Shown here piece by piece: positions 4,147 through 64,000 of a stretch of DNA of 64,000 bases. The position numbers and the translations under genes are program-made. A model generated the notes under the pieces. The model searched no databases, was not told the origin of the DNA, and worked only from the letters and a program-made list of their open reading frames with translations. Source of the stretch: Puia sp. (lineage in GTDB: Bacteria; Bacteroidota; Bacteroidia; Chitinophagales; Chitinophagaceae); contig JARLGZ010000083.1 of the NCBI GenBank assembly GCA_031292515.1, forward strand, positions 1 to 64,000. Reading direction: 5' to 3'. Numbering within the stretch: position 1 is the stretch's first letter; each line of letters begins with the position of its first letter.

Positions 4147-4147
4147 T

Positions 4148-9163: not shown

Positions 9164-9176
9164 CGGACAATTCGAA

Positions 9177-13853: not shown

Positions 13854-13935
13854 TGGATGATTTAATTTTCTTTTTTTGCCGGTGATGGTCGGCCGCTTAT
13901 TCCGGTTTTGAGATGGTTTCGATCCCGGGATCCGC

Positions 13936-14280: not shown

Positions 14281-14298
14281 GGCTTTAGATTTTTTTCG

Positions 14299-14670: not shown

Positions 14671-14966
14671 GATTCGATTGATTTTTGTCAATAGATGCCC
14701 GTCCGGCGCCCCAGGCTGGTTCCGGCAGGAATGAAAAAATGCTATTTTGTGAAGGATCCTTCGGGAAACGGGAGAAGTACGAATCGCGCTTTGTGAGGAC
14801 AAATTTACACCAGCCTTTTGCCGGATCCAAATGCCACTCCGCAGAAAGCGCGTATAGGTGCATGGGGAATGCGGAAGCGCAAAAAAAGATAATTAAAAAA
14901 GATGAATAGGACAAAGAGCGTCTTCGGGATCCGGTTGACGCTCCGTGCAGGGGTATGTTCTCTTAT

Positions 14967-25890: not shown

Positions 25891-26064
25891 AATCTTATCG
25901 AAATTATGGTTTTTTATGGATCCGGAGCGTTAAAATAGTTTAGTTTTTTGATCATAAAGTGGAATGATCCGGTATCCCGAAATCCTACTTTTATCGCGTC
26001 GATATCCTTTTATCAACAGAATACCAATCCAATCATAATACCATAAAACTTGAATCCTTTGAAC

Positions 26065-29526: not shown

Positions 29527-29550
29527 TTTCCTCACCCACTATCCATCAAA

Positions 29551-29657
29551 ACCAATGATGAGACAAAAGGCAGCTATCAATGAAAAACCGGTTATAAATC
29601 AAAACCAATGACGAGTCAAAAGACAACTATGAATCAAAAGCCAGGCATGAACCGAAA
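29551..29657. repeat. Six tandem 17-18-bp units across the MFS gene start
   Basis: Units begin at 29551, 29569, 29587, 29605, 29622 and 29640, with consensus ACCAATGAATCAAAA plus a variable part. Four carry an ATG on the plus strand, including the MFS starts at 29608, 29629 and 29647. The fourth unit is one base short, which puts the upstream ATG at 29556 in another frame. Confidence 0.85.
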
Positions 29658-31065: not shown

Positions 31066-31080
31066 AAAAAGACCACTACC

Positions 31081-31959
31081 ATGAATAAAGAATCTGCTTA
31101 TATCAACGACGGGCGCCTGTCGCCCGAGAACCTGGCTTTCTACCTGGAATGGGGCTATCTCGTGGCGCCGGACCTGATCACACCCCACGAGATACAGGCC
31201 CTGAAGAAAGAGACGGCCGCCATCTTCCGGGGGGAACGGGGTTTTGTCGAGGGGATGCTGCCCGTTCACGAAGGCGAACCCGACAGCGAGGTGCTGAAGA
31301 AATATGTGGCGATCCACTTCCCGCACAAGATCTCGAAGTCGATCCATGACTTCCTCTTCCACCCGCGGATCGTGGAGATCCTCACGCAGGTGGTCAGCCC
31401 CAACCTGAAATGCATGCAGTCCATGCTCTTCGTCAAGGCGCCCGGCAAGGCCGGCCAGTCCTGGCACCAGGATGAATACTATATCCCGACACGGGACCAG
31501 TCCTTGGTGGGCGCCTGGGTCGCGATCGACGATGCGACCATCGACAACGGATGTCTCTGGATCATCCCGGGTAAACCGGGCTATATGATGCGGCGCGTGC
31601 CCAATAGCAGCAACGAATACGCCGACGTAGACACGATCGACGTCTCCGATATCGAGCCCGGCCGGATCCTGCCCGTAGAAGTCGGCAGCGGCGCCGTCGT
31701 CTTCTTCAACGGCTACACGCTCCACAGCTCCCGGAGGAACAAGACCAACGACTGTTTCCGGACGGCCCTGGTCAACCACTATATGAGCGCGGAGTCCATG
31801 CTGCCCTGGGACCAGGACGGCAAGCTGCCGCCGACCGAAGACCTCCGCGACATCGTGCTCATCGCCGGTGAAGATCCCTATGGCTGGAAGCAGACGGTGG
31901 ATTTGAATAAGCCTTATCTTCGACCCGAAGTATTAAAGATCAAAACGGGTCAGTTGTGA
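31081..31959 (+). CDS. Phytanoyl-CoA dioxygenase (PhyH)-family oxygenase
   Basis: This 292-aa Fe(II)/2-oxoglutarate-dependent oxygenase fold has the 2-His-1-Asp facial triad: H129 and D131 in SWHQDEYYIP and H215 in NGYTLHSS, with R219 as a likely 2-oxoglutarate anchor. LWIIPGKPG and AVVFFNGYTLH are family features. In Bacteroidota such genes are often next to sugar transporters and isomerases, where they hydroxylate a small polar molecule rather than phytanoyl-CoA. Here the partners are an MFS sugar porter and a TIM-barrel epimerase-like protein. The substrate is unknown. Its last codons run into an 18-bp tandem repeat. Confidence 0.9.
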   Translation: MNKESAYINDGRLSPENLAFYLEWGYLVAPDLITPHEIQALKKETAAIFRGERGFVEGMLPVHEGEPDSEVLKKYVAIHFPHKISKSIHDFLFHPRIVEILTQVVSPNLKCMQSMLFVKAPGKAGQSWHQDEYYIPTRDQSLVGAWVAIDDATIDNGCLWIIPGKPGYMMRRVPNSSNEYADVDTIDVSDIEPGRILPVEVGSGAVVFFNGYTLHSSRRNKTNDCFRTALVNHYMSAESMLPWDQDGKLPPTEDLRDIVLIAGEDPYGWKQTVDLNKPYLRPEVLKIKTGQL

Positions 31960-32035
31960 TAAGCGGGTCAATTGGAATAAGCAGGTCAGTTGTGATAAGC
32001 GGGTCAATTGGGATAAGAAGTCAGGTGTGAATTTG
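31946..32035. repeat. Five tandem 18-bp units, alternating two variants
   Basis: Units start at 31946, 31964, 31982, 32000 and 32018. Odd units read near CGGGTCAGTTGTGATAAG and even ones near CGGGTCAATTGGAATAAG, giving a 36-bp higher-order period. The first unit contains the stop codon of the PhyH-type gene, and the array fills most of the gap to the next gene. Confidence 0.9.
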
Positions 32036-32077
32036 AGCCAGTCGTGGAAATAAATCAATTCAGTAAATGAGCCAACG

Positions 32078-32875
32078 ATGAACGTACAGTTTTTCTGTCC
32101 CCGCTGGGGAAGCGAGGGGATCTCCTGGAGCGATTTCACCAAACGTGTCAAAGACGCCGGCTATGACGGCATCGAATGGGGGCTTGCCCACACGACGACC
32201 GACCGTGAACTCGAAGAGGCCTGGAACTGCGCGGCAAAACACGGTCTCGGCATGATCCCGCAGCACTACGACACCAACGACGCCCATTTCCAGCGGCACA
32301 AGGACGCCTATGAGGCCTGGCTGCAGCGCATGAGCATCTATCCGGCGGTCAAACTCAACTCGCAGACCGGCAAGGACTTCTTCCACTTCGGCCAGAACTG
32401 GCAATTGATACAGATCGGAAACAAATATGGCGCGGTCCATGAGACCCACAGAGGCAAGTTCTCCTATGCAGCCCACACCACGAAAACCTATCTCGAAGAG
32501 ATCCCCGAGCTGCGTCTCACGCTCGATATTTCGCACTGGGTGTGTGTGGCGGAATCCTTGCTTGACGACCAGCCCGAAGCCGTAAACCTGGCGATCGAAC
32601 GGGCCGACCACCTCCACGCCCGTCTCGGCCACCCCGAGGCCCCGCAAGTCACCGACCCGCGCGAACCCGAATGGTTGATGGTCTTCGAGCGGCACCTGGA
32701 ATGGTGGGATCGCGTGGCGGCCCGGATTCAAACCGAAGGCAAAGTGCTGACGATTACGCCGGAGTTCGGACCCTATCCTTATATGGTAAGACTGCCGGTG
32801 ACGGGAGAACCCATTGCGGATCAGTGGGAGGTGAATAGGTATATGATGGGGATATTGAGGAAGAGGTATGGGTAG
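32078..32875 (+). CDS. Sugar phosphate isomerase/epimerase-like TIM-barrel protein
   Basis: This 265-aa protein belongs to the AP-endonuclease-2 family. It contains GYDGIEWGLAHTT near residue 29 and metal-ligand candidates in GAVHETHRGKFS (E and H) and LTLDISHWVCVAES (D and H). HARLGHPEAPQ and LTITPEFGPYPY near the C-terminus follow the family pattern. Such enzymes isomerise sugars or sugar acids in the cytosol. It probably acts on the product imported by the MFS porter and possibly oxidised by the PhyH-type enzyme. It ends the carbohydrate locus, and the next genes are convergent. Confidence 0.88.
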   Translation: MNVQFFCPRWGSEGISWSDFTKRVKDAGYDGIEWGLAHTTTDRELEEAWNCAAKHGLGMIPQHYDTNDAHFQRHKDAYEAWLQRMSIYPAVKLNSQTGKDFFHFGQNWQLIQIGNKYGAVHETHRGKFSYAAHTTKTYLEEIPELRLTLDISHWVCVAESLLDDQPEAVNLAIERADHLHARLGHPEAPQVTDPREPEWLMVFERHLEWWDRVAARIQTEGKVLTITPEFGPYPYMVRLPVTGEPIADQWEVNRYMMGILRKRYG

Positions 32876-32911: not shown

Positions 32912-33649
32912 TCACCCCACCTTTCTCCCCACCGCCACCACCGACAACCCGACCTGGTTGAAGGCCAGCCTGTCGACCATTTTGAACATGGGTACCAGTT
33001 TATTATAAAGGTTCAGCTGCCCGGATGGAAGGGTCTGCCGCTTCAGGATACTTCCCGAGAGATACCAGCCCAGGATACCCGCCATATTGAAATACCAGCT
33101 CTTCAGCACCTGGAAGTGTTCCGAGAAGAGCTTCTCGATCGACTGGCGGGTATAGCGCCGGTAGTGTTCCAGTTCCTTGTCGAGGACATTGTACAGCGAG
33201 GGATAGGCAGGCACGAGGATGATCACATGGCCGCCGGGCGCCAGGAGCTTATAACAGTTTTCGAGGGCCTGGTGGTCGTCCGCGATATGTTCGACGACAT
33301 TGAGCGCGAATACCGTATCGAAGCCCCCGATGATCCCGGGATAGTCTTGTTCGAAATGCGGGTCGGCGAGGTCCATGGGGAGGATACCGTCGAGGGATGG
33401 GTCTCCCGAGAAACGTCTTTTTAGCATTTTGCAATAGTCGGGATTCAGGTCGGTGAGGAATATCGGGAGACGGTTCCTGAGGAAGAGCGCCGAGATATTG
33501 CCGATGCCGCTGCCGACCTCCAGGGTCCGGCCTTTTGTATAGGGCCGGATCGTTTCAAACATCCACTCGTTCAGCTTGTCTACTATACTCAGGTTTTGCA
33601 AAGTGGTTAACCCCACCTGCGCCGGTGTAAGCATTTGCGTCGTACTCAT
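32912..33649 (-). CDS. Class I SAM-dependent methyltransferase (module copy 1)
   Basis: This 245-aa methyltransferase starts at the ATG ending at 33649 (MSTTQMLTPAQVGLTTLQNL). SAM motif I is LEVGSGIGNISALFL. An acidic loop IFLTDLNPDY and FDTVFALNVVEHIADDHQAL follow, and the second half has GHVIILVPAYPSLYNVLDKE and HYRRYTRQSI. The first 95 bp overlap the 3' end of the GT2 gene in another frame. Its paralog at 62448-63182 shares the whole layout (LEIGSGIGNIS, LVPAYMALYNGLDLG, FNMVGILGWWLSGS). It is likely to methylate a sugar or lipid-linked glycan made with the GT2 enzyme. Confidence 0.9.
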   Translation of the reverse strand: MSTTQMLTPAQVGLTTLQNLSIVDKLNEWMFETIRPYTKGRTLEVGSGIGNISALFLRNRLPIFLTDLNPDYCKMLKRRFSGDPSLDGILPMDLADPHFEQDYPGIIGGFDTVFALNVVEHIADDHQALENCYKLLAPGGHVIILVPAYPSLYNVLDKELEHYRRYTRQSIEKLFSEHFQVLKSWYFNMAGILGWYLSGSILKRQTLPSGQLNLYNKLVPMFKMVDRLAFNQVGLSVVAVGRKVG

Positions 33650-34442
33650 TTTTCGCGAATTTATATTTGAAGATGCAATAGATGGCACGGAAGGCGTCCT
33701 TCATCGAGATCTTCTTCCCTTCCTCGAAGGTGCGTCCGTAGTAGGAGATGCCCACCTCATAGATCCGGATCTTGGGGATACGGGCGATCTTCGCCGTGAC
33801 CTCCGGTTCGAAGCCGAAGCGCTTCTCTTTCAAGGGTACCCGCTTGATGATATCGGAGCGGAACAGCTTGTAGCAGGTCTCCATGTCCGTCAGGTTCAGG
33901 TTGCAGAACAGGTTGGAGATAAAAGTCAGGAGCCGGTTGCCGATGGAATGCCAGAAGAACAGGATGCGGTGCGGGTTCCCCCCCATGAAACGGGAACCGT
34001 ACACGATATCGGCGAAACCGTTGACAACCGGCTTCAGGAGACTATTGTATTCGAGAGGGTCATATTCGAGATCCGCGTCCTGCACCAGCAGGTATTCCCC
34101 CGTTGCCCTGGCGATGCCGGTATGGATGGCCGCGCCTTTTCCCTGGTTGACGTCATGCTCGTAATACAGGATTTTGAGTTCCGGGTTGTCGAGGATATAA
34201 TGTTTGATCGCGCTATCCGTAGCATCTTTGGAGCAATCGTTGACGATGATGACTTCTTTTTCGATGCTGTTGATCAGATGGACCTGCTGGATCTTGTCCA
34301 GGATCACCGCGATGGTCTTCTCCTCGTTATACACCGGTATGATGATAGAAAGGGTTTTGATGATCTTCAGGGAGGTTTTCCCGTTTTCAGCAACGGCAAC
34401 GACATGGTCCGACCTTTCGATCGGATGAATGATCTCTGGCAT
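33555..34442 (-). CDS. GT2 family glycosyltransferase, DPM1-like (module copy 1)
   Basis: This 295-aa GT-A fold enzyme of family 2 has LSIIIPVYNEEKTIAVILDK near residue 31, EVIIVNDCSKDATD, VNQGKGAAIHTGIARATGEY and the metal-binding DADLEYDP. LTDMETCYKLFRSDI and KRFGFEPEVTAKIARI are typical of polyprenyl-phosphate mannosyl/glucosyl transferases without membrane anchors. It would charge a lipid carrier at the cytosolic face. The C-terminal 30 residues are poor in family signal and overlap the methyltransferase gene by 95 bp. It is about 70% alike to the copy at 61655-62542, judged by eye. It follows the outer-membrane barrel gene on the same strand. Confidence 0.93.
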   Translation of the reverse strand: MPEIIHPIERSDHVVAVAENGKTSLKIIKTLSIIIPVYNEEKTIAVILDKIQQVHLINSIEKEVIIVNDCSKDATDSAIKHYILDNPELKILYYEHDVNQGKGAAIHTGIARATGEYLLVQDADLEYDPLEYNSLLKPVVNGFADIVYGSRFMGGNPHRILFFWHSIGNRLLTFISNLFCNLNLTDMETCYKLFRSDIIKRVPLKEKRFGFEPEVTAKIARIPKIRIYEVGISYYGRTFEEGKKISMKDAFRAIYCIFKYKFAKNEYDANAYTGAGGVNHFAKPEYSRQAERVDV

Positions 34443-34744: not shown

Positions 34745-37249
34745 TCAGTCCGGCAATGATCTGTTCTTGCCGACACGCACAAAATGAAAAGCGGCCGACA
34801 GCATCCAGTAGCGGCCGATGATGTTGGAGTAGTTTTCGGAGATCTGGTTGGCGGTGATCGTGCGCCCGATGCCGGTGTTCTGGCCGAGGATATTGTCGAT
34901 CTGCCATTTCACGACCAGGCGATTCCGGAGGAAGTTTTTGCCGACAAAGGCATTCCACAAAAACACGGCGTTGTTCTTGTCGAAATAGGCCGTCTTCTGC
35001 CGCCAGCTGTAGTTTCCGCTGGTATTGAGTTCGAGCCCCGGGAAGGGGAAGACGCCCAGGTCCCCGGAATAGTTCTGGGACCAGTACCGGGTCGGCGCCG
35101 CGGTATTGATGGAGCTGCTGAGATACGAGTAGCCGAGGTTCGAATGAACCCCGAAATGATATTTATCGGGATCGTTCAGCGCCATGGAAAATCCCAGGTT
35201 GCCGGTATAGGTATTATTACGGCTCAGCAGGAGGTCGACAAAATTCACGGCGTTGTGATAGGTGAGACTGGTGTTGACACGCAGGTCCAGCGCCCGTACT
35301 TTTCTGCCTACCGAAAAATTCAGACCCGCGTTTTCCGCGCCGCTTGTATTCACCCACCCGCTGACCTGTCTGCCCAGGCTGTCGGTATAGGTCTTCGTCG
35401 TGATGCTGTTGGTCGTGAAGCTGCCATAGAAGCCTGCCTGTAACGGGGTGGCGCCAAGGGATTGATAGTTGACCTGCAGCACATGCGTGGAAGAGGGTTG
35501 CAGACCGGGGTTGCCTGTCAGGATATGCAGTGGGTCGTTATTGTTCTGAACGGGTTGCAGTTGGCTGATAGTCGGCAGCTGCACGCTGGCGGTATAATAG
35601 CCATAGACGGAACGGGTATTGCTGAGGTTATAGCGGGCAAAAGCCGTCGGGGTAAAATAAAAATACCGGTACCGCTGCCTGGCGCCCGCGACGAGGTCCC
35701 TCTGCAGGTAGGAGTTCTGAATGAACTCGCCGCCCACGACATAATGCAGGGCCTTACCCGCGGACTGAAGGTTCACCCGGATCTTTTGTGTCACCAGGTT
35801 CGACTGGTATTGGCTGCTCAGGCTGTCTACGGGGAGATCATATTTGCCGTCGCCTTTGTTATAGGTGTTTTGCAGGGATTGATTCCTGTTAAAGCTGAGG
35901 CCGTAACCGATCGCCAGTTGTGTCTTGAACCACAGCGGCTCGGTGTAGTTAAGACGGGCGTCGGCGGAGAGGTTATGGGTATTGTATTGTTTTCGCTGGT
36001 CGGTGGTGTCGGCGCTGCTGAGGCTGCCGTCGGGGCGGAAGAAACTGTTGAGCGAATACAGGTAGCCGCCGGCAGTGTTGTCCTGTTTGGCGAGGCTGCC
36101 GAGCAGGGAAAATACCCGGTCTTTCTTTTTCCGGCCGGCCCTGCGCCACATCACGGCCCCTTGCGAAATCCGGCTGTCCACATCCGACCGGGTCTGTTTC
36201 AGGCTACTGTTGACCAGGGTATCGTTAAACAGGCCGTCTCCCGAAGAAGAGTATTGATTATGCCCCTTCCCGTCCATTCCGCTGAAATACAGGTGCAGCG
36301 CCGAAAGGGTGTCCGGGGCGAGGAACCAGGCAACGGCCATCGACTGCTGGTACAGGCTGTTTGTCGAACTGCTCTGCTGGTTCTGCTGATAGACGGAATC
36401 CGGCAGAATTTGTTCGGTGAGGCTGGAGGAGACAGGCCGGGTATACAGCTGGCTGGCCTGGAAGTTTCCGATCGCGTGTTCCTGCCCGTTGTTCCAGTCG
36501 TTGGAATAGTGGAGCGCCGCGCCCATCACCCGGGGGATACCCGCCCCCGCGGAGGCGCCCAGGGGGTCGCTCACGCCGCCGCTCAGCGAGATACCCGATC
36601 CCAGGTCTCCCACGGCGCCGTTAAAAATCGTCTCGCCGTTGTTGGCGCTCTTGGCGATGGCTGCGAGCTGCCGTTTGTCCCTAAAGGCTCCCAGCAGGGC
36701 ATTGTCATTATAATACCCGGAGGCATCGGCTCCGGCCTGGAGGTTCCCGAAAGACCCTCTCTTACGATCATCCTTCAGCGTGAGGTTCAGGGTCTTTATC
36801 CGCTCTCCGTCGTCGACACCCGTAAATTCCGCGCGGGCGCTCTTCTTGTCCAGCACCTGGATTTTGGCGATCATATCGGCGTTGAGATTGCGGGTGATCA
36901 GCCTGGGGTCCGAGCCGAAGATGTCTTCCCCATCCACCAGCAGCTTCTGTATCCGCTGGCCGTTGAACGTGATGCCTCCCTGCGCGTCTATTTCCAGACC
37001 GGGCAGCCGCTTCAGCAGCTCTTCCACCGTGGCATTCACCTTCATCTTTACGCCGGCGGTATTATATTCGATGGTATCGCCTTTGATGCGCATGGGCGGG
37101 TAGCCGGGAGTGATGGTGACGGGAGCGAGGGTGTCGGAATGGGGGGACGTATTGGATGGATGAGGGATCTGCTGTCCCCGGGCGACCAGGATTCCGCCTG
37201 ATAAAAAGAAAACGAGCAAGGCTGGCTTGGAAAGACATACAATTACCAA
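34745..37249 (-). CDS. SusC/TonB-dependent-receptor-like outer-membrane beta-barrel (module copy 1)
   Basis: This 834-aa exported protein has a signal (LLVFFLSGGILVARGQ). A plug-like domain (about residues 50-170: GDTIEYNTAGVKMKVNATVE, LLKRLPGLEIDAQGGITFNG, LLVDGEDIFGSDPRLI) leads into a long beta-strand region with alternating aromatic residues, ending HFVRVGKNRSLPD. It belongs to the Bacteroidota outer-membrane beta-barrel family related to TonB receptors. It lacks the CarboxypepD_reg N-terminal domain present in the right-hand paralog (58902-61562). The shared plug motif (KKFPGLHV or KRLPGLEI, then NGRDFVGGD or DGEDIFGSD) and C-terminal GRY(W/F)xL motif show common descent. It heads barrel-GT2-methyltransferase on the minus strand. 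Confidence 0.88.
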   Translation of the reverse strand: MVIVCLSKPALLVFFLSGGILVARGQQIPHPSNTSPHSDTLAPVTITPGYPPMRIKGDTIEYNTAGVKMKVNATVEELLKRLPGLEIDAQGGITFNGQRIQKLLVDGEDIFGSDPRLITRNLNADMIAKIQVLDKKSARAEFTGVDDGERIKTLNLTLKDDRKRGSFGNLQAGADASGYYNDNALLGAFRDKRQLAAIAKSANNGETIFNGAVGDLGSGISLSGGVSDPLGASAGAGIPRVMGAALHYSNDWNNGQEHAIGNFQASQLYTRPVSSSLTEQILPDSVYQQNQQSSSTNSLYQQSMAVAWFLAPDTLSALHLYFSGMDGKGHNQYSSSGDGLFNDTLVNSSLKQTRSDVDSRISQGAVMWRRAGRKKKDRVFSLLGSLAKQDNTAGGYLYSLNSFFRPDGSLSSADTTDQRKQYNTHNLSADARLNYTEPLWFKTQLAIGYGLSFNRNQSLQNTYNKGDGKYDLPVDSLSSQYQSNLVTQKIRVNLQSAGKALHYVVGGEFIQNSYLQRDLVAGARQRYRYFYFTPTAFARYNLSNTRSVYGYYTASVQLPTISQLQPVQNNNDPLHILTGNPGLQPSSTHVLQVNYQSLGATPLQAGFYGSFTTNSITTKTYTDSLGRQVSGWVNTSGAENAGLNFSVGRKVRALDLRVNTSLTYHNAVNFVDLLLSRNNTYTGNLGFSMALNDPDKYHFGVHSNLGYSYLSSSINTAAPTRYWSQNYSGDLGVFPFPGLELNTSGNYSWRQKTAYFDKNNAVFLWNAFVGKNFLRNRLVVKWQIDNILGQNTGIGRTITANQISENYSNIIGRYWMLSAAFHFVRVGKNRSLPD

Positions 37250-37735: not shown

Positions 37736-37987
37736 ATGGTAAAGGATAGACGCTATACCGATGTAAAAGAATTAATTCAGAGTGGTCATATAAAAACCTT
37801 CGGTCGGATCTTTGACTTTATCCCCAAAACAGTGGTTTATACCGATATGGGAATGAACTACAATCGTTTTCAAAAACTCTTCTTCGATCCCGAGCTGTAC
37901 ACGATCCGGGAGTTAAAAGCCATGGCCATGCTGATTGGCTGCGACCCTAAGACGCTCATAGACCTGGCAGCCGGATTTTCCAGATAA
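37736..37987 (+). CDS. Small conserved-looking protein, possibly HTH-like
   Basis: This 83-aa protein begins MVKDRRYTDVKELIQSGHIK and continues with IFDFIPKTVVYTDMGMNYNR and LYTIRELKAMAMLIGCDPKT. Spacing of helices (a buried IFDFIPKTVV, then FQKLF, then LKAMAMLIGCD) looks like a compact helix-turn-helix, as in small Bacteroidota XRE-like proteins. The ATG at 37736 is the only plausible start. It is divergent from the barrel gene and convergent with the AraC-HTH gene next to it. Regulation of the module is possible but unproven. Confidence 0.65.
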   Translation: MVKDRRYTDVKELIQSGHIKTFGRIFDFIPKTVVYTDMGMNYNRFQKLFFDPELYTIRELKAMAMLIGCDPKTLIDLAAGFSR

Positions 37988-38016: not shown

Positions 38017-38379
38017 CTACGCTTCGATCATGCAGTTCCGAAACGCAGAAGGCGTAATGTTGGTGAATTTCCGGAAGACTTCCCCAAAATGGCTGGTCGT
38101 TTTGAACCCCACCGCATCGGCGATGGCCTTGATCGGTTTATTAGTGTCCGACAGCAGGGGTTTGGCTTTCTCGACCCGGACCCTGAGGATGTAATCGTGC
38201 AGCGCGAGCCCGGTTTCGCGCTGGATCCCCGCCTGTAACTTCTTTACGCTGAGGGAGACTTCCATGGAGAGGCTTTCGGCGGAGATGTAGTCCGCGTAAT
38301 GTTTGTCGATATAGTCCATGGCCTCATGGGTACATCGGATGTCATACTTTGTGAGACGAAGGATTGCTTCCAATTGCAT
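38017..38379 (-). CDS. Stand-alone AraC-type HTH protein (module copy 1)
   Basis: At 120 aa this is essentially only the AraC double-HTH domain. The first helices read YIDKHYADYISAESLSMEVS, then LSVKKLQAGIQRE. The second HTH is IKAIADAVGFKTTSHFGEVF, then FTNITPSAFR. No sensor domain is present, so activity may be set by expression level or a partner. It is clearly paralogous to the 133-aa protein at 58344-58745 (YIEKHYSDAVSADQLAMEVG, KQLQAGVYSRKGL) and related to that at 57575-57958. Both copies sit upstream of the barrel-GT2-methyltransferase set. Confidence 0.85.
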   Translation of the reverse strand: MQLEAILRLTKYDIRCTHEAMDYIDKHYADYISAESLSMEVSLSVKKLQAGIQRETGLALHDYILRVRVEKAKPLLSDTNKPIKAIADAVGFKTTSHFGEVFRKFTNITPSAFRNCMIEA

Positions 38380-48580: not shown

Positions 48581-48802
48581 ATGACAATGCGAAAAATCGG
48601 AGATTGCAGTCGCGCAATTCAAACAACAGGAGAAAGCATTTCATATGGTTATGTCCTATTAAAGTATATGGACAAACTGACCATGGAAAATAACTCAGAT
48701 ACATTTTATTTCCAGATAAAAGGTTTGGACTTTTTCAGGATGTCGACACAGGACAAAAGAAGAATCGATTCGCCGGATGCTGTGCTTGAAAAGAGACTAT
48801 AG
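48581..48802 (+). CDS. Small hypothetical protein, low confidence
   Basis: This 73-aa frame reads MTMRKIGDCSRAIQTTGESI, then YGYVLLKYMDKLTMENNSDT. Composition is ordinary. It follows the decayed surface-protein gene and overlaps the convergent membrane-protein gene by 6 bp. Nothing else supports it. Confidence 0.3.
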   Translation: MTMRKIGDCSRAIQTTGESISYGYVLLKYMDKLTMENNSDTFYFQIKGLDFFRMSTQDKRRIDSPDAVLEKRL

Positions 48803-50422
48803 GGGTAACTTTGGCCTCGCTGTATAAACCCGTCTCCCCGCCACCGCGGCTACGGCGATCAGCGTCACGAATACATTCCAGTAGCTGTACCGGAAGTCGC
48901 GGTCGTGCTGGTAGACCGGGAATTGGCTCAGCGTATACAAGACGCCCGATAGCTGGATCCAGGCATGCAGTTGCCAGTAGCGAACAGCGGAGAAGCGATG
49001 CCCATCGGTGTGCGTCGCGGAAGAATGGGTATCCACAGAATCATTGACCCCCGAATCACTACCCGCAGCTTTCTTTGCCGCCCTCCGGCTCCGGTACAGG
49101 AACCCCGCAAAGGCCGCCGTATTCAGGAACAGCCAGAACCAGGGCGAATAGAGGCAGGTCGGGCTCAAGGAGGTATACATCCCGGTGAACCAATCGCGCA
49201 GGTCGTTAGGGGCCTGTTGCACATGGAGGGCGTTGTTGGGCTCGATCCAGACCGACACGTTCCAGTAGCCCCCGCTTTTGAAGCGTTGCCGGATGCGCAG
49301 GTAGTAGAGAAAGCCTTCCCACCGGTTGCGGAGGTAGAGGAGTGGATGCCGCCCGATCGCCGATAGCCAGCTCCGCGTGACGATGCTGTCCATGGCCGCG
49401 TCGGGGTAGGGGATCATAGAGGGTCTGCCGTCGGGTGGCCAGACGATGTCGTCGAAGGACGCGGGGGTGTATTGCCGCAGCAGGGTATCATAGTGGAAAT
49501 AAGAATAGCGTGTGAGGATGGGCGGGAACAGGTTCTCGCCGCTGAGCTTCGAGATGCCGGTGAGATCGAGCAGCTTCAGCTTGAAAGCAGGGTAGGCCTT
49601 CGTCGCGTGGATCACACGATAGGTCAGGGTCTGCGCAGTGAAGAGAAAGACACCGCAGACCGCCAGCGAGAGAAGCAGGGATTTCCAGCGGATCCGGCGC
49701 GTCCATCCAAACGCCCCCAACCAGGGGCTCCCGGACCGGCTGCCATGAGTCGCAGACGACCCTGTTCCGGGGACCGGCACTGCTGGCGTCGATCTCACCG
49801 CTGTCCCGGAGGACCGGCCCTTGAACAACTCAAACGGAGAGACAAACAACCAGGTCAGCGGCAGCAGCGCCACCACGGTATTGGTGCGGATCCACAACCC
49901 GAAAACAAGTAGAAAAGTTGCGATGACTTTGCCCTCGTGTGCTCCTTTTCCTGTGCTCGCCTCCCTGTTCCCGCCCGCCCCTTCCCCGACCTCCGCCAGC
50001 ATCAGCGCCGCAATACCCCAAAGCAGCGAGGTCAGGCTGTCGCGCATCACATATTGAGGGATAAAAGAGAAAAAGGCGACGAGCAACAGGAGCGCCCAGA
50101 AACCGATCGAGCGGATGGGAACGCGTCGGACCAGCAAAAGAAGAAAGACCCAGTAGAGAACCATCTGCAACACGAACATCGATTGATAGTTGCCTGTCAG
50201 CAGCCAGAGCATCCGCCAGGTCCAGGAGAAGGCGCCTCCGAACCAGTCGTCGTAGGCCCCGGTCGTCACTTGGTGAAACTGGCTCCAGGAGTCGGCGCCA
50301 TAGGAGCCGGGCATAAACAGGCAGAAGAGCCACGCTATTACGAGACCGGTGATCAGGATCTTCGCCGGGCGGTTAGGTCGTTGGTTCCGGGTGCTGATAT
50401 TGAGTAATGTGAGTCTTGACAA
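48797..50422 (-). CDS. Polytopic membrane protein, GT-C-like
   Basis: This 541-aa protein has about ten hydrophobic segments. The first periplasmic loop contains GADSWSQFHQVTTGAYDDWF, an acidic and aromatic motif at the position of the GT-C catalytic Asp/Glu, followed by GGAFSWTWRMLWLLTGNYQS. A hydrophilic insertion (about 210-240) is Ser/Gly/Pro-rich. The second half has periplasmic stretches (RYSYFHYDTLLRQYTPASFD) and final helices. It probably transfers a sugar from a lipid carrier, but the acceptor is unknown. It lies 42 bp downstream of the restriction gene, same strand, across a 21-bp repeat. Confidence 0.6.
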   Translation of the reverse strand: MSRLTLLNISTRNQRPNRPAKILITGLVIAWLFCLFMPGSYGADSWSQFHQVTTGAYDDWFGGAFSWTWRMLWLLTGNYQSMFVLQMVLYWVFLLLLVRRVPIRSIGFWALLLLVAFFSFIPQYVMRDSLTSLLWGIAALMLAEVGEGAGGNREASTGKGAHEGKVIATFLLVFGLWIRTNTVVALLPLTWLFVSPFELFKGRSSGTAVRSTPAVPVPGTGSSATHGSRSGSPWLGAFGWTRRIRWKSLLLSLAVCGVFLFTAQTLTYRVIHATKAYPAFKLKLLDLTGISKLSGENLFPPILTRYSYFHYDTLLRQYTPASFDDIVWPPDGRPSMIPYPDAAMDSIVTRSWLSAIGRHPLLYLRNRWEGFLYYLRIRQRFKSGGYWNVSVWIEPNNALHVQQAPNDLRDWFTGMYTSLSPTCLYSPWFWLFLNTAAFAGFLYRSRRAAKKAAGSDSGVNDSVDTHSSATHTDGHRFSAVRYWQLHAWIQLSGVLYTLSQFPVYQHDRDFRYSYWNVFVTLIAVAAVAGRRVYTARPKLPL

Positions 50423-57574: not shown

Positions 57575-57958
57575 ATGCACTACCATGGATCGATCCGGCT
57601 TAGCCGGGAAGAACTCGCCATTGTTGAAAAAGCCATTCACCACGTAAGGGACCACTACCAACAAAAATTCACCGAACAGGACCTCGCCGAAGAATTCGGG
57701 ATGACGCCAAAAAAGATGCAGACCGGTTTCAGGAAGGTTACCGGGTTCACCGTTTATAAATTTCAACTCTTTGTACGGATCGAAATGTCGAAAGAGTTCC
57801 TCCGTGACGAGAATCTGTCCGTCAAGCAGGTCGCTCATAAAGCCGGATTCTCCACCCAAAGCCGTTTCGGCGAGATCTTCAAGGAACTGACCGGCTACAC
57901 TCCTACGGATTATAGGGTTGAACATTTCGGATACAAGAAACCATTTAGCGATAATTAA
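57575..57958 (+). CDS. Stand-alone AraC-type HTH protein
   Basis: This 127-aa protein consists of the AraC double-HTH domain with short tails. The first HTH reads FTEQDLAEEFGMTPKKMQTG and the second LSVKQVAHKAGFSTQSRFGE, then LTGYTPTDYR. It has no sensor domain. It is related to the proteins at 38017-38379 and 58344-58745. It precedes the second of these by 385 bp on the same strand and may act on the same module. Confidence 0.85.
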   Translation: MHYHGSIRLSREELAIVEKAIHHVRDHYQQKFTEQDLAEEFGMTPKKMQTGFRKVTGFTVYKFQLFVRIEMSKEFLRDENLSVKQVAHKAGFSTQSRFGEIFKELTGYTPTDYRVEHFGYKKPFSDN

Positions 57959-58343
57959 TTAGAAACCACCCTGGAAACGAGCGGCGTTTTCAGTACGAAA
58001 GCCGCATTTCCAGTAGGAACTGATTTTTTTCGGGGAATCGGGCTGCGCTATCTTTGGCTTGTTGTTCCACGATCCTTAATCACGCAGAACGGTAGTATCT
58101 CAGCCAGGAAAGAATCCCATAGAATCTGTATTATCAGGATTTATATTATCGTATCCATATTATAAATAATACTCCAGCCCAGTACAGGCTCCGCTTTGTA
58201 GCACTCCCATATATACCAAACCCTGCAGGCTGATAGCCCTGTTTGATCTGTGTTGCCCGGCCCGTGAGGGGCGTTCAGATACAAGCAGTGCTTCAGCGGC
58301 CGGGGATTCTGAAACTATTCAACTCTACAGTAAAACCTTCCTT
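57959..58343. other. 385-bp intergenic region with short repeats
   Basis: Between two AraC-HTH genes. Related words GCGTTTTCAGTACGAAA (57983) and CGCATTTCCAGTAGGAA (58001) form a degenerate pair. TATTATC-type 15-bp units occur at 58137-58166. No gene is convincing. Confidence 0.5.
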
Positions 58344-58745
58344 ATGCCTATTAATGGATTGTTCACTCCATACGATTATGATCGTATCAACAGGGCTATC
58401 GCCTACATCGAAAAACATTACAGTGATGCCGTCTCCGCCGACCAGTTGGCGATGGAAGTCGGTATGGACATCAAGCAATTGCAAGCAGGAGTCTATTCCC
58501 GAAAAGGTCTCACCATCCACAACTATATTCTAAAAGTTCGCGTCGAGCGGGCTACCAAGGATTTGGAAGATTTCGGTCGTCCCATCAAATTTATCGCAGC
58601 CAAGCATGGGTTCAGCTCCTCTTCTCATTTCGGGGCGGAATTTAAAAAGCAGACAGGCCAAACACCCAGGCAGTACCGTTACCTGTTCGCCTTGAATATG
58701 TGTAACGGCTATGATCCATCCGGACCGGGTAAAGATTTGTCCTGA
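58344..58745 (+). CDS. Stand-alone AraC-type HTH protein (module copy 2)
   Basis: This 133-aa protein is the AraC double-HTH domain alone: YIEKHYSDAVSADQLAMEVG, MDIKQLQAGVYSRKGL, then IKFIAAKHGFSSSSHFGAEF and KQTGQTPRQYR. It closely resembles the 120-aa protein at 38017-38379 in length and in both helices. It lies 156 bp upstream of the barrel gene on the same strand, which suggests direct control of the barrel-GT2-methyltransferase genes. The effector is unknown, since no ligand-binding domain is present. Confidence 0.87.
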   Translation: MPINGLFTPYDYDRINRAIAYIEKHYSDAVSADQLAMEVGMDIKQLQAGVYSRKGLTIHNYILKVRVERATKDLEDFGRPIKFIAAKHGFSSSSHFGAEFKKQTGQTPRQYRYLFALNMCNGYDPSGPGKDLS

Positions 58746-58901
58746 ATCAGGATCCCGATTCCGCCGATAACAAGAGCGTGATTGTTCCAGCATCCTGGCT
58801 GTAGTCCCAGGCTGCCGGGGCTATCACTTTCTCCAATCCTGATACTATTTCCCTTGATCTTGATAGATTATACGAGTAGCTTGTATGCCCATTGACGCTG
58901 C

Positions 58902-61562
58902 ATGCGGACAGTCCTCTTCATATTCATTTTATCCCTGGCAGTTGTCGACGATCTGCATGCACAGGAGGGTCTCAATGTCAGGGGAACCGTGACGGATAGT
59001 AGCGGCTTGCCTTTGAATGCTGCTACGGTTCGCCTGATTGTCGCGGGGAGCAATCTCCGTGTCGTGGATACTTTTGCAGGACTAACCCGGCCGGATGGAT
59101 CTTTTCATTTCCGATTGCGGGAAGCCAAGCCGTTTACTCTCCTGGTCACCATGAAAGGATGCGGAAATTTCCAAAGGAGCTTTTCGCCAGCTGCCGCCAT
59201 TCATTCACTGGTCTTGTCGCCTATCTTGTTGAAAGCTGCTTATACGGACTTGGCACCTGCCACCATCGTTGGGGTCAGGCCCATCTGGATCCGGAAAGAT
59301 ACAGTAGAATTCTATACGGCGGCATTTCATGTGCGGGCCGGGGACGAACTGGAATATCTGCTGAAGAAATTTCCGGGTCTACATGTCAATAGCGACGGGT
59401 CGGTCGCCTTCCAGGGCAAGAAGATCGCAAAGATCATGGTGAACGGGCGGGATTTCGTGGGGGGTGATGTGGCGACTGCGATCCGAAACCTCCCTGCGGA
59501 TATTGTGGAGAGTATTCAATTGATCGACGACTACGGGGACAAGGGTCGGCTTACAGGTGTTAGGAGCGCCGAGTCAGAGAAGACCCTCAATGTCGTTTTG
59601 AAACAAGACAAACGAAATGGAAAATTCGGGAGTCTCGAAACCAACACCGGGAATAAAGGGAAATATAATGTGACCTTATTCTCTGACGTATTCAACAAAG
59701 ACAAGCAACTGACTTTAAATGCTTGGTCGCGGGATGTTTCTGCCACGGGAAGTAACGATGAAAAAGGTGTTCATTTCGGTTATTCCGATCGCTGGAATAA
59801 AAAATGGTCGGGTAGCACCGGGCTGAGCTTATGGAGAGACGATTATTCTTCCGGAAACGGAATGGCCCAGGACAATTTCCTACCTGGCAGCATAACTCAT
59901 CTTCAACAAACCAACCTGACGACCGGTGACGATGTTAATGGGGGCGGCGGGTATAGCCTGGAGTATCGACCAGATCCCAATACTCTCCTGCGAGTAAGCC
60001 CTTCCCTGCAGCTTTCGAAGTCGTCAACGGCGATCTCAAGTGATCTTTCATCCAGGGAGTCGGACAGTAATTTTCAGAAAAACACCAGCGGAAATTCCAC
60101 GAATCTTATGCACTCTCAAAACGTTTCGGTAGGGGCTGATATATACTTTGAAAATACTGACCCCGCTTCCGGAAGACGGTTTAGCTTTACCGGAGGAGCA
60201 CATTATTCCAATCAGCGGCAGAATGGCGATCAACGAATAAATACGACTATTCAAACGGATAGCATGGGCAATGTCTCTTTTGATCATTATTTGCTGCAGA
60301 ACACAAGCCTTAACCAGGATCTTACAGCAGGACTAAATTATTATCTTCCGCTTGGGAAGACGGCCTTTCTGGAATTGGCTTATGCCTGGCATTATTCACT
60401 GATTCAAAATGACAGGCTGACAAAGGCCCCGGATAGCATTACTATGTTGCCTGCCACGATCGATTCCCTGAGCAATGATTACACTTTTCATCTGATTACC
60501 CACCGGCTTCATGCCGGATACCTGGCTCATTCCAAAAAGCTCAACCTGACCCTGAGCCTGGATGCACAACCTGCTTCCCAGAACGGCCAAACGGCTAATA
60601 AAGGCGACGTCTTGTCTTATCACTATTTTAATATGCTACCCCTGGCGCAATTGTCCTGGTCTTTCTCTGCTGCCCGGAAGCTCAACGTGGAATACACTGG
60701 CAACTCCCTGCCGCCGCAGGTCCAACAGTTACAGCCAGTAATGGATCTTAGTAACCCGCAATATCCGGTGACAGGCAATCCATCCTTAAAACCATCTTAT
60801 ACCCATGCGGTAGGATTGCATTATGAACAGTCTGCCGTTCTTCCGGCAGGGTTGCCGGCTTTTGGAATCGACTTCAAGTACAATACTACCCAAAATACGG
60901 TCATCCCGGATATTACCCATCCACATGACACGAGCGCCGTGGTTCAGCGTAGCACCTGGATTAATACGAATGGATTCCATTCCTTTATGGCAAATTATCA
61001 CTTGGACTTTCCATACCTACTACATAAGCGTCTGAGGATAGCGGCATCAGGAAGTTTCGGTACCGTTCAGGCCGTCAGTTTAACGGATGGGGTTTTTTAT
61101 CGCACAAATAGCTTGAACTGGAGCCAAGTGCTAAATGTTATAGTAGATATACCGGATGTCATTGAATACCGAGTGTACGGCAATTATACACATTCAATAA
61201 CCTTATATACAGAAGGAGGCATTCTTCCCGCTTCTTTTTCGTCGGCAAGTTGGGAGTTGCAGAGCCGCCATTTCTTGTTCAAAAAATGGATCTTCGAGTA
61301 TGCTGCTACGCAACTGTTCACGAGTGGAGCCACCCAAGGTTTGCAAAGTAATCCAATATTACTGAATACTTCGATCCAACGCCAATTCTTCCCCAATAAC
61401 CGGCTGTCCTGTCGGTTTTCTATAAACGATCTGTTAAACAGCAGTTCCAATACCAGCCAGATCGTTACTCCTACCAGTATTACCCAAACCCGGACCACCT
61501 TGATCGGCAGATATTTTCTGTTAGCCATTATCTGGAAATTCGAAAAATTCAGGCAAGAATAA
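58902..61562 (+). CDS. TonB-receptor-like outer-membrane beta-barrel with CarboxypepD_reg domain (module copy 2)
   Basis: This 886-aa protein has a signal peptide (MRTVLFIFILSLAVVDDLHA). An N-terminal CarboxypepD_reg/TonB-associated domain follows (LNVRGTVTDSSGLPLNAATV, then LTRPDGSFHFRL). A plug-like domain (about 120-230: LEYLLKKFPGLHVNSDGSVA, KIMVNGRDFVGGDVATAIRN) and a long beta-barrel with C-terminal LIGRYFLLAIIWKFEKFRQ complete it. It is the paralog of the 834-aa barrel at 34745-37249, which lacks the first domain. Substrate may be a glycan or a hydrophobic molecule exported or imported across the outer membrane. It is followed 92 bp later by GT2. Confidence 0.9.
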   Translation: MRTVLFIFILSLAVVDDLHAQEGLNVRGTVTDSSGLPLNAATVRLIVAGSNLRVVDTFAGLTRPDGSFHFRLREAKPFTLLVTMKGCGNFQRSFSPAAAIHSLVLSPILLKAAYTDLAPATIVGVRPIWIRKDTVEFYTAAFHVRAGDELEYLLKKFPGLHVNSDGSVAFQGKKIAKIMVNGRDFVGGDVATAIRNLPADIVESIQLIDDYGDKGRLTGVRSAESEKTLNVVLKQDKRNGKFGSLETNTGNKGKYNVTLFSDVFNKDKQLTLNAWSRDVSATGSNDEKGVHFGYSDRWNKKWSGSTGLSLWRDDYSSGNGMAQDNFLPGSITHLQQTNLTTGDDVNGGGGYSLEYRPDPNTLLRVSPSLQLSKSSTAISSDLSSRESDSNFQKNTSGNSTNLMHSQNVSVGADIYFENTDPASGRRFSFTGGAHYSNQRQNGDQRINTTIQTDSMGNVSFDHYLLQNTSLNQDLTAGLNYYLPLGKTAFLELAYAWHYSLIQNDRLTKAPDSITMLPATIDSLSNDYTFHLITHRLHAGYLAHSKKLNLTLSLDAQPASQNGQTANKGDVLSYHYFNMLPLAQLSWSFSAARKLNVEYTGNSLPPQVQQLQPVMDLSNPQYPVTGNPSLKPSYTHAVGLHYEQSAVLPAGLPAFGIDFKYNTTQNTVIPDITHPHDTSAVVQRSTWINTNGFHSFMANYHLDFPYLLHKRLRIAASGSFGTVQAVSLTDGVFYRTNSLNWSQVLNVIVDIPDVIEYRVYGNYTHSITLYTEGGILPASFSSASWELQSRHFLFKKWIFEYAATQLFTSGATQGLQSNPILLNTSIQRQFFPNNRLSCRFSINDLLNSSSNTSQIVTPTSITQTRTTLIGRYFLLAIIWKFEKFRQE

Positions 61563-61654
61563 TTTACCCCCGATTATGATAGAAAATCCCTTGATCCTGA
61601 TAGTCCGCTAAACTAATTTACACGTCAGTTCAAAGCAATAATAAATTCTATCGC

Positions 61655-62542
61655 ATGTGTGAGATTCTTATCCGGCCTGACCGGCGGGATTATTTCCTGT
61701 TTATTCCGGGTACGCATCAGTCACTGGAAAACAAGGCCGGCAAACTGTCAATTGTCATTCCGGCTTATAATGAAGAGAACACCATCTTATCTATCCTGGA
61801 CCGGATCAACCAGGTCCGGCTGATCAATGAGATTGTTAAGGAAGTAATCGTGGTAAATGATTGTTCCCGCGACAAAACCGATCGGCTTATCAAGGAGTAT
61901 ATGGCCGACACCCCTGAAATGTATATACAGTATATTCTCCATACGGTCAACCAAGGAAAAGGAGCTGCCATCCATACCGGCATTGCGCATGTTACCGGAG
62001 ACTATCTCATTATACAGGATGCGGACCTGGAATACGATCCCCGCGAATACAACACGCTATTGAAACCCATTGTAGAAGGTCATGCCGATGTCGTATTCGG
62101 AACAAGGTTTTTTGGTGGTAAACCACACCGGATCCTTTTCTTCTGGCATCCTATCGGCAACAGGCTGCTGACTTTCTTCTCTAATATTTTCACAGGTCTA
62201 AACCTTACGGATATGGAGACCTGCTATAAACTCTTTAGGGCAGATATTCTAAAGGGCCTTCGCCTGACAGAGAAGCGTTTCGGGTTCGAACCGGAAATCA
62301 CGGCAAAGACAGCTCGCATACCGGGCGTACGCATTTACGAGGTAGGGATCTCGTATTACGGACGAACCTTCCAGGAAGGGAAAAAGATCGGGTGGAAGGA
62401 TAGGCTGAGAGCCCTTTATCGCATCATCAAATATAAATTTATCAAAAATGAATACCGACCAGCTAAGCGCCCCACAGGAGACGGGACTTATAACCTTACA
62501 ACATCTGAGCGAAGCACGGCGCCTGAATCAATGGATGTTTGA
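61655..62542 (+). CDS. GT2 family glycosyltransferase, DPM1-like (module copy 2)
   Basis: This 295-aa paralog of the enzyme at 33555-34442 has LSIVIPAYNEENTILSILDR, EVIVVNDCSRDKTD, VNQGKGAAIHTGIAHVTGDY and DADLEYDP, then LTDMETCYKLFRADI and KRFGFEPEITAKTARI. A short N-terminal extension (about 30 residues) precedes the GT-A domain and is not conserved. It would make a polyprenyl-phosphate sugar in the cytosol. It overlaps the methyltransferase gene by 95 bp, exactly as in copy 1. A GT-C-like gene follows the pair, a plausible user of the lipid-linked sugar. Confidence 0.93.
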   Translation: MCEILIRPDRRDYFLFIPGTHQSLENKAGKLSIVIPAYNEENTILSILDRINQVRLINEIVKEVIVVNDCSRDKTDRLIKEYMADTPEMYIQYILHTVNQGKGAAIHTGIAHVTGDYLIIQDADLEYDPREYNTLLKPIVEGHADVVFGTRFFGGKPHRILFFWHPIGNRLLTFFSNIFTGLNLTDMETCYKLFRADILKGLRLTEKRFGFEPEITAKTARIPGVRIYEVGISYYGRTFQEGKKIGWKDRLRALYRIIKYKFIKNEYRPAKRPTGDGTYNLTTSERSTAPESMDV

Positions 62543-63182
62543 CACTACAAGGCCTTATATAAAGGGTAGCACTCTGGAGATAGGGAGCGGTATCGGGAAT
62601 ATCTCCGATATGTTTATCCAACAGGGAATGCCTCTCTATTTAAGCGACCTGGAGGATAAATATTGCAGGATATTAAGCAAAAGGTTCCTGGGGGAACCTA
62701 TGGTGCGGAGTATTTTTCGGATCGACCTGAGGCATCCGGATTTTGGGCACAAATATGCTGAATTGCTGGGGAGGTTTAGTACAGTCTTCGCGTTGAATGT
62801 AGTGGAGCATATTCCCAACGACAAGTTGGCTATTGCCAATGCAAAACTATTACTACGCAAACGAGGTCACCTGATCGTCCTGGTACCGGCCTATATGGCG
62901 CTTTACAATGGTCTTGACTTGGGACTTGAGCATTGGAGGAGATACAATCGACAATCGATCCGAAAGTTATTGAGCAAAGACTTCGAAATTCTAAAAGTCC
63001 AATATTTTAACATGGTAGGGATACTAGGATGGTGGCTATCGGGGTCGGCGCTAGGCAAGAAAGAGTTGCCGGAAGAGCCGTTAAGTTTCTACAATAAACT
63101 GGTACCCATGTTCCAGATATCAGATGCTATCACCTTTAAGCAGGTAGGGCTGTCTGTGATCGCAGTCGGAAAGAGAAATTAA
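62448..63182 (+). CDS. Class I SAM-dependent methyltransferase (module copy 2)
   Basis: This 244-aa paralog of the methyltransferase at 32912-33649 shows motif I LEIGSGIGNISDMFI, then FSTVFALNVVEHIPNDKLAI, HLIVLVPAYMALYNGLDLG and HWRRYNRQSIRKLLSKDFEI. The C-terminal LPEEPLSFYNKLVPMFQISD is shared with copy 1. The ATG at 62448 overlaps the preceding GT2 gene by 95 bp. It probably modifies a sugar or lipid-linked glycan. A GT-C-like gene begins 22 bp after its stop. Confidence 0.9.
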   Translation: MNTDQLSAPQETGLITLQHLSEARRLNQWMFDTTRPYIKGSTLEIGSGIGNISDMFIQQGMPLYLSDLEDKYCRILSKRFLGEPMVRSIFRIDLRHPDFGHKYAELLGRFSTVFALNVVEHIPNDKLAIANAKLLLRKRGHLIVLVPAYMALYNGLDLGLEHWRRYNRQSIRKLLSKDFEILKVQYFNMVGILGWWLSGSALGKKELPEEPLSFYNKLVPMFQISDAITFKQVGLSVIAVGKRN

Positions 63183-63204: not shown

Positions 63205-64000
63205 ATGAACCAGAAAATCATTTCGGGACCGGATCCCGGACAGTCTTTTATCCATTTTATATTATTCGAAAAAAAGAATCGTTCCTATCTCTTAGTTGCA
63301 GGAGCCGCTACCGTGGTGCAGTTCATCGTGTTTAAATTGCTATACCCTTATCCTGATTTTTTCTCAGACTCTTGGAGCTATATTTCTGCCGCCTCTGCTA
63401 ACTTAGATATCAATATATGGCCCATTGGTTATTCAAAGTTTCTAATGGCTTTCCACTCGCTAACCCATTCCGATATCGCTGTAGTGGCATTTCAATATTT
63501 TTTCTTAGAATTTTCCACGCTGTATTTATTCTTTACCCTACTTTATTTTTATACTCCCAGTAGGACGACCAAAAATATTTTATTTATATTCTTGTTTTTT
63601 AACCCCTTATTCCTCTATCTCAGTAATTATATCAACAGTGATCCCTTGTTTGCAGGCCTAAGCTTATGCTGGATAGGGGAATTATTGTGGATTGTTAACA
63701 GGCCTCGGCCCTACCATATTCTTTCACAAGCGATCTTGTTATTTCTGGCTTTCACAGTTCGGCATAATGCGCTATATTATCCTTTTGTCGCGGCTATCGC
63801 TTTTGCTATATCTCGCGAAAGACTATGGGTGAAATTGGCAGGTGCCGCGTCCGGATTTGTGCTGGCAGGATTGTTTGTTATACATGAGCAAGATGCAGCT
63901 TATCAAATGTATGGTCTCAAGCAATTCTCTCCTATGAGTGGATGGCTGCTGGCGAATAATGCGCTATATATACGGGGGCAAATCCATGTGGACTCCTCCC
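63205..64000 (+). CDS. GT-C-like polytopic membrane protein, 3' end outside window
   Basis: The frame from the ATG at 63205 is open to the window edge (265 codons). It has a short basic N-terminus and several hydrophobic helices. The first periplasmic loop contains the acidic and aromatic YPYPDFFSDSWSYISA, with the Asp expected of GT-C enzymes. LYLSNYINSDPLFAGLSLCW and FTVRHNALYYPFVAAIAFAI follow, the latter a pattern seen in GT-C-like surface-glycan proteins. It lies 22 bp after the methyltransferase and is likely part of the same transcript. It would use the lipid-linked sugar made by the GT2 enzyme. Confidence 0.75.
   Translation, partial: MNQKIISGPDPGQSFIHFILFEKKNRSYLLVAGAATVVQFIVFKLLYPYPDFFSDSWSYISAASANLDINIWPIGYSKFLMAFHSLTHSDIAVVAFQYFFLEFSTLYLFFTLLYFYTPSRTTKNILFIFLFFNPLFLYLSNYINSDPLFAGLSLCWIGELLWIVNRPRPYHILSQAILLFLAFTVRHNALYYPFVAAIAFAISRERLWVKLAGAASGFVLAGLFVIHEQDAAYQMYGLKQFSPMSGWLLANNALYIRGQIHVDSS

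Follow-up and report, generated by a model that had tools for sequence, protein, structure and literature searches.

Two lanthipeptides, NAI-112 and cacaoidin, are glycosylated, using other glycosyltransferases than those treated here. Among lanthionine synthetases, the absence of the zinc triad from the LanC-like domain separates class III from class IV. Systems of the ArnC/ArnT type modify lipid A and confer resistance to peptides. In the part of Walker et al. 2020 consulted (PMC7268733), LanKC and LanL are placed mostly in Actinobacteria and Firmicutes, and the pinensins alone are named as isolated from Bacteroidetes. A survey of Bacteroidales (PMC10352776) reports LanC, LanM and radical S-adenosylmethionine (radical-SAM) areas; the word LanKC is absent from the part of it consulted. 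The locus described here lies in Puia sp. (Bacteroidota, Chitinophagaceae; assembly GCA_031292515.1), in the first 64,000 nucleotides of contig JARLGZ010000083.1, a stretch called the window below. A set of four genes, for a short AraC-type helix-turn-helix (HTH) protein, an outer-membrane beta-barrel, a GT2 glycosyltransferase and a class I SAM methyltransferase, occurs in it twice. One of the two sets, the right copy (57575-63182 onward), appears on balance to be the front end of a peptide cluster resembling those for ribosomally synthesized and post-translationally modified peptides (RiPPs). Judged from gene content, a family of such clusters in Chitinophagaceae-type bacteria probably yields secreted small peptides with lanthipeptide-type modification, perhaps decorated with sugar. 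No recognisable description of this kind of cluster was found in the open-access PubMed Central (PMC) literature, a search that left most subscription papers outside its scope.

The right copy runs on past the end of the window. Coordinates beyond 64000 are those of the same contig (C213) with the window numbering continued; other genomes, contigs and loci are cited by handles beginning with G, C and L. The genes are as follows.

57575-57958, plus strand: short AraC-type HTH protein, 127 residues (HTH_18 7e-20), upstream of the right cluster
58344-58745, plus strand: short AraC-type HTH protein of the right copy, 133 residues (HTH_18 4.6e-18)
58902-61562, plus strand: outer-membrane beta-barrel protein of the right copy, 886 residues (OMP_b-brl_3 7.5e-29)
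61655-62542, plus strand: GT2 glycosyltransferase of the right copy, DPM1/ArnC-like, 295 residues (Glycos_transf_2 1.2e-32)
62448-63182, plus strand: class I SAM methyltransferase of the right copy, 244 residues, overlapping the GT2 gene (Methyltransf_23 5e-07)
63205-64752, plus strand: GT-C-like multi-pass membrane protein, cut by the window end, its N-terminal part (63205-64000) lying inside
64733-65266, plus strand: thioredoxin-like protein
65220-68036, plus strand: class III-like lanthionine synthetase, 938 residues, start codon uncertain (RamC_N, Pkinase, LANC_like)
68055-68627, plus strand: MauE (Pfam/NCBIfam)
68679-69002, plus strand: tandem peptide gene 1, with hydrophobic leader
69229-69549, plus strand: tandem peptide gene 2, with hydrophobic leader (the pair encodes peptides of 107 and 106 residues)

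After the peptides, four genes on the opposite strand encode proteins matching Peptidase_S9, Thioredoxin_2 and SusD_RagB and a plug-domain SusC with STN (Pfam). The original prediction, made from the window's letters, had noted both the third small AraC protein upstream (57575-57958) and the GT-C-like gene downstream (from 63205), and both are present.

The 938-residue protein appears to be a lanthionine synthetase of the class III/IV type. Its single chain carries, in order, RamC_N (6.6e-24), Pkinase (2.3e-22) and LANC_like (4.5e-23) domains (Pfam), and its PDB profile matches include the LanKC structures 8sao/8sap, with 8car as the top match. In an alignment of 14 full-length synthetases, read by eye, the HRD motif and the following Asp are kept in all, and no C...CH zinc triad was seen in the aligned blocks of the LanC-like domain. 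The system thus resembles class III lanthipeptide (LanKC) systems in having RamC-like lyase, kinase and LanC-like parts in one protein with no zinc triad seen, and in the small Ser/Thr-rich peptides that adjoin the synthetase. It differs from them in its Bacteroidota host, in scoring below the NCBIfam cut-off, in the signal-like hydrophobic leaders, in the lack of Cys in some peptides, and in its GT-C-like, MauE and SusCD partners. At E 1e-15 the synthetase profile matches 14 of 118 relatives. Some matches cover the kinase part only (G026, G053, G060, G075 and a second match in G061); 10 genomes remain, and seven of these, the window's own included, belong to the window's genus. Over the phylum, two of 296 sampled genomes match at E 1e-40, namely the window's own and one of its family.

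Linkage to the synthetase was counted at 17 loci, 14 full-length and three fragments (L208, L244 and L245), in 20-kb pieces searched at E 1e-3 with profiles made from the first clusters. The controls were 20 regions of the same genomes at arbitrary hand-chosen positions, not random draws, and p values are from Fisher's test. Peptides are found near the synthetase at 16/17 loci, with a profile trained on 11 of the 17, and in 0/20 controls. The GT-C-like gene is found at 14/17 (p 1e-7, with a profile from which L212, an unrelated membrane protein, was omitted), MauE at 10/17 and thioredoxin at 7/17, each against 0/20. GT2 occurs at 6/17 (p 0.005, again against 0/20), one of the six being the window's own query. 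SusD and SusC, counted at E 1e-5, occur at 16/17 and 15/17 loci versus 3/20 controls each, and AraC proteins of any length at 11/17 versus 6/20. In the loci outside each profile's training the GT-C-like gene was still detected in 12/15, MauE in 9/16, thioredoxin in 5/15, and peptides in 5/6 at E 1e-3 and 3/6 at E 1e-5. In all seven peptide clusters with a GT2 gene, that gene stands directly before the GT-C-like gene or is parted from it by the methyltransferase gene alone. The window's own genome holds peptides together with a GT-C-like gene on C213, C195, C184, C145 (two places), C279 and C114, and a synthetase is present at four of these places.

The short AraC proteins are supported as linked to these peptide clusters in congeners. 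Eleven short-AraC places were found outside the own genome, counting G011:C12, which has a stop, and 10 were examined. Seven of the 10 have one or more genes for GT2, methyltransferase, GT-C-like protein, synthetase, thioredoxin, MauE, peptide or barrel; among the other three, one has SusC/SusD only and two have none of these. Within their own genome the window's three short AraC proteins are set apart, the next match there being a full-length protein at 61 bits. Their own scores of 213-217 bits are high by construction, these proteins being rows of the query profile. The nearest among those compared to the 57575 protein is a short AraC beside GT2 at G019:C6 (41.6%). The protein at 58344 is nearest to a short AraC close to a short methyltransferase at G024:C44 (69%).

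The 28 candidate peptides were chosen by eye, and this selection accounts in part for the leader that they share. They begin with a basic segment followed by a hydrophobic stretch; the remainder averages 25% Ser/Thr and contains 0-6 Cys. In seven of eight tandem pairs the two peptides resemble each other more over the first 30 residues than beyond them (one pair does not show this), and in the five closest pairs identity is 77-87% over the first 30 residues versus 60-67% for the remainder. The core motif of class III lanthipeptide precursors, S-x2-S-x3-C, was found in its strict form in 1/28 candidates and in neither of the window cluster's two, and a loose S/T form of it in 16/28, including one of those two.

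Of 19 peptides of the group, 12 match the DUF6520 (PF20130) model at an E value of 0.1 or lower (lowest 5.2e-7). Among 148 Bacteroidota genomes sampled, this family was detected in 11, in nine of them above the Pfam cut-off. Thirteen of the 14 places were examined (G203 was left out); of these L291 falls short of the Pfam cut-off and L290 lies in the own genome (C28). MauE, SusC and SusD are present in all 13 regions and an S9 peptidase in nine, and no match to the synthetase, the GT-C-like protein, GT2 or the methyltransferase was found in the 13. The simpler MauE/DUF6520/SusCD unit is therefore the more widespread, with fuller versions of it in the window's genus. The likeness between the two lies in the peptide leader and in the MauE and SusC/SusD alongside; the difference lies in those four missing enzymes and in the failure of the window's peptides to match the Pfam model. 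In nine of the 13 regions the MauE-bearing protein has about 500 residues (e.g., L281:8325-9836) instead of 150-190; the additional part, tested in one case, has no Pfam match at E 0.001. No paper on DUF6520 was found in the open-access PMC search described above.

The right GT2 is predicted to be of the DPM1/ArnC type. Its PDB profile matches include sll0501, dolichol monophosphate mannose synthase and ArnC, and it has no predicted membrane segments. Since no NCBIfam equivalog cut-off was reached, its product is presumptive. The GT-C-like protein weakly matches TIGR03663, at E 0.013 (NCBIfam), and a simple hydropathy scan gave 6-7 hydrophobic segments in three members of its family. This pairing resembles glycosylation by DPM1/ArnC with PMT/ArnT-type enzymes, in that a GT2 of the DPM1/ArnC kind precedes a multi-pass membrane protein. 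It differs in that the membrane partner is weakly related to PMT_2 and in that the acceptor would be a presumed one. A route through a lipid-linked sugar, suggested in the original prediction, is in part upheld, because the DPM1/ArnC-like GT2 does accompany the GT-C-like membrane protein (7/7 clusters); the conserved four-gene unit to which the route had been tied was not found.

Some clusters encode the GT-C-like protein as a fusion with a flavin oxidoreductase. For example, the 1033-residue protein at L235:11164-14262 joins it to an N-terminal Amino_oxidase/NAD_binding_8 flavoprotein. At G024:C44 (L202) a separate version of 552 residues stands between the short AraC and the short methyltransferase. 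In the window itself, a 541-residue protein at 48800-50422, which by eye resembles multi-pass membrane proteins and contains an 'ADSW' stretch, is perhaps another GT-C-like protein. Twenty regions around further GT-C-like genes were examined out of a longer list; seven have a peptide, MauE, thioredoxin (TRX), S9 or SusD match. The methyltransferase of the right copy has an AlphaFold model of the class I fold (mean pLDDT 90.5). The Foldseek matches listed for it are methyltransferases of unrelated substrates (TMq 0.50-0.64), which excludes naming a substrate from the fold.

Several results weigh against reading the right copy as part of a lanthipeptide-like cluster with glycosylation. The synthetase scores 364.7 bits against NCBIfam LanL (NF038150) and 249.5 bits against LanKC (NF038151), under the respective cut-offs of 650 and 575. 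The peptides, besides having been picked by eye, are found at 14/17 synthetase loci when the threshold is set at E 1e-5; the window cluster's own two have no DUF6520 match at E 0.1, and four of the 28 have no Cys after residue 28, so that thioether rings cannot be general. The own genome also has clusters of the kind without a synthetase (L222, L292 and L293). The assignment of the GT-C-like protein is weak: the window's protein has no Pfam match, its best PDB sequence profile match is at E 0.58, and in its family (A7) DUF6020 was found in 4/18 members and PMT_2 in 1/18 (E 0.0039). Thirteen of the 20 further GT-C-like regions have no peptide, MauE, TRX, S9 or SusD match, which rules out the gene as a strict marker of the cluster. 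Finally, the counts near the synthetase are not significant for the methyltransferase (2/17 vs 0/20, p 0.20), the barrel (3/17 vs 0/20, p 0.09) and the short AraC (3/17 vs 0/20, p 0.09). For the last two the 20-kb pieces matter, since the barrel and short AraC of the window, of G002:C15 and of G007:C24 lie at or beyond their edges; a hand count that adds these three gives 6/17 for the barrel and 5/17 for the short AraC, the other loci not having been recounted likewise.

The left copy has the same four families in the same order, on the minus strand.

38017-38379, minus strand: short AraC-type HTH protein of the left copy, 120 residues (HTH_18 5.7e-21)
37736-37987, plus strand: small divergent open reading frame of 83 residues, between the left barrel and AraC (no Pfam match)
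34745-37249, minus strand: outer-membrane beta-barrel protein of the left copy, 834 residues (OMP_b-brl_3 4.4e-30)
33555-34442, minus strand: GT2 glycosyltransferase of the left copy, 295 residues, overlapping the methyltransferase gene (Glycos_transf_2 2.5e-30)
32912-33688, minus strand: class I SAM methyltransferase of the left copy, 258 residues (245 from the ATG at 33649; Methyltransf_12 1.9e-14)

Both sets were located where the original prediction had placed them, in the same order and on the expected strands, with the small divergent gene at 37736 in the left one. Their Pfam families agree (HTH_18/HTH_AraC; OMP_b-brl_3; Glycos_transf_2; Methyltransf_11/12/23), and the similarity between partners is far beyond chance. 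By BLASTP the AraC partners are 48% identical over 106 residues (6e-35), the GT2 enzymes 62% over 295 (3e-135), the methyltransferases 55% over 243 (3e-100) and the barrels 25% over 807 (2e-55). The barrels do not form a close pair, and the left one has no N-terminal CarboxypepD_reg-like part. The estimate of about 70% likeness for the GT2 enzymes was too high, and a count of two was too low, the own genome holding five close copies of GT2 (two on C213, and one each on C195, C145 and C137) and four of the methyltransferase.

That the left copy is a recent duplicate of the right one would account for the same four families in the same order, and is very improbable. In neither the GT2 tree nor the methyltransferase tree (80 and 94 rows, with weaker matches dropped by score limits and the bootstrap not settled in either) do the two copies group as sisters, and in both the left copy has no settled place. 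The right GT2 groups first with that of the G015 cluster (97/74) and next with a G024 pair (89/93); the right methyltransferase stands with those of the G015 cluster and of G024, the latter close to a short AraC (100/97), a join that may be false, since the G015 and G024 methyltransferase rows are long branches meeting. By the tree test set out in the original prediction, the right GT2 and methyltransferase agree in going with G015, and neither of them joins the left copy. The barrels are 25% alike versus 36-48% to cluster barrels of other species. Among the barrels compared, the nearest to the right one is G014:C21, beside a GT-C-like protein and a synthetase (36% over 878 residues; 597 bits, versus 195 bits for the left copy), and the nearest to the left one lie near the clusters G007:C24 (48%) and G002:C15 (46%). 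Within the own genome the right barrel has its best non-self match on C18, followed by C242 and the left barrel at roughly equal distance. The left AraC is nearest to the short AraC of G002:C15 (55%). These trees and nearest-relative comparisons rule out recent duplication of the module and suggest that both copies belong to the same cluster family and were not recently made from each other. The left copy may be an incomplete relative, its barrel and AraC being closest to the clusters of other species, and may act in trans or be a remnant.

On its outer flank (25009-32875) the left copy adjoins a block of genes for an AraC protein, a GH67-N and CBM6 protein, an MFS-like sugar porter, a PhyH-like protein and a TIM-barrel-like protein (GH67-N and CBM6 by Pfam, the other names by eye). 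The block recurs on C145 of the own genome at 53-69% identity, and in both places it faces a methyltransferase of this family.

The original prediction took the four genes for a module that makes a lipid-linked sugar, methylates it and uses it in surface modification with the barrel, and expected the four families to be neighbours elsewhere. The methyltransferase was searched for in named genomes, and the best 80 of 132 relatives were kept; their loci span 3.5-16.7 kb, so that missing neighbours are partly due to contig ends. GT2 occurs in 66 of the 80, mostly adjacent. The short AraC and the GT-C-like gene occur in 0/80 (many on short contigs), the barrel in one, as a weak match, and the synthetase (a weak match, 32 bits), thioredoxin and a full-length AraC in one each; one locus carries two peptide matches. 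All four families together were found in 0/80, which excludes a conserved self-standing four-gene module. The methyltransferase is kept at only two of the 17 synthetase loci, including the window's own, and besides the latter a single synthetase locus (L221) has all four families, its AraC being full-length. GT2 and methyltransferase are an old Bacteroidota pair, and the AraC and the barrel are not part of it. The module reading fails because the barrel and the short AraC are hardly ever next to the pair in these loci and because the two copies are not sisters.

A self-standing surface-glycan module present in two copies is accordingly improbable. The age and linkage of the pair would suit it, as would a left copy with no peptide, synthetase or MauE match inside the window and the pair on C137 of the own genome, which has no cluster gene within 19 kb. 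Against these stand the rarity of barrel and short AraC beside the pair (on contigs that are often short), the resemblance of both, within the genus, to those of peptide clusters, and the direct continuation of the right copy into such a cluster. Surface modification is probably wrong as the target, the likeliest acceptors being the small exported peptides encoded at the cluster's other end. A somewhat less remote alternative, still unlikely, is that GT2, methyltransferase and GT-C-like protein act on a lipid or envelope polymer and protect the cell against the neighbouring peptide. The GT2 resembles ArnC, and ArnC/ArnT-type systems resemble the combination of GT2 with GT-C. A pure resistance role fits less well with a GT-C-like gene that is one of the most frequent neighbours of the synthetase (14/17), is sometimes fused to a flavin oxidoreductase, and is present also where GT2 is not.

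If the right copy is the front end of a RiPP-like cluster, a working scheme can be proposed, in which gene content and linkage are observed and all of the chemistry is inferred. Small peptides would be made with a signal-like hydrophobic leader, which would direct export, and a Ser/Thr-rich remainder. The synthetase would phosphorylate and eliminate Ser/Thr to give dehydro residues, with thioether rings possible where Cys is present. GT2 would charge polyprenyl phosphate with a sugar, possibly methylated by the methyltransferase, and the GT-C-like protein would move this sugar onto the exported peptide outside the inner membrane. MauE and thioredoxin would handle the cysteines by redox chemistry. 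At the outer membrane the barrel and SusCD could let the product through or sense it, SusCD recognising it, and the short AraC proteins would regulate. On this model Ser/Thr dehydration and a sugar would meet on one peptide, as in NAI-112 and cacaoidin; the proposed membrane GT-C-like protein, working outside the inner membrane, marks the difference.

A wider proposal is offered tentatively and is rather doubtful at present: exported Bacteroidota peptides like DUF6520 would be precursors of a new RiPP class, with class III-like dehydration, GT-C glycosylation after export, and STN-bearing SusCD recognising or retrieving the product. If it is true, Cys-free peptides in some clusters would be dehydrated without lanthionine, and the at least seven clusters with diverging peptides in one genome would constitute a private peptide language or a metallophore set. 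The reading of the right copy as part of a RiPP-like cluster gives DUF6520 a testable role, and would bring class III-type synthetases into Bacteroidota, with precursors that appear to be Sec-exported and a sugar transfer taking place outside the cytoplasm. The several cluster variants per genome in the genus would provide a natural series for the contribution of each enzyme.

At the far end of the window, 3-14802 holds mostly minus-strand genes that by eye are conjugative transfer (Tra)-like, among them one for a 1097-residue protein at 10085-13375.

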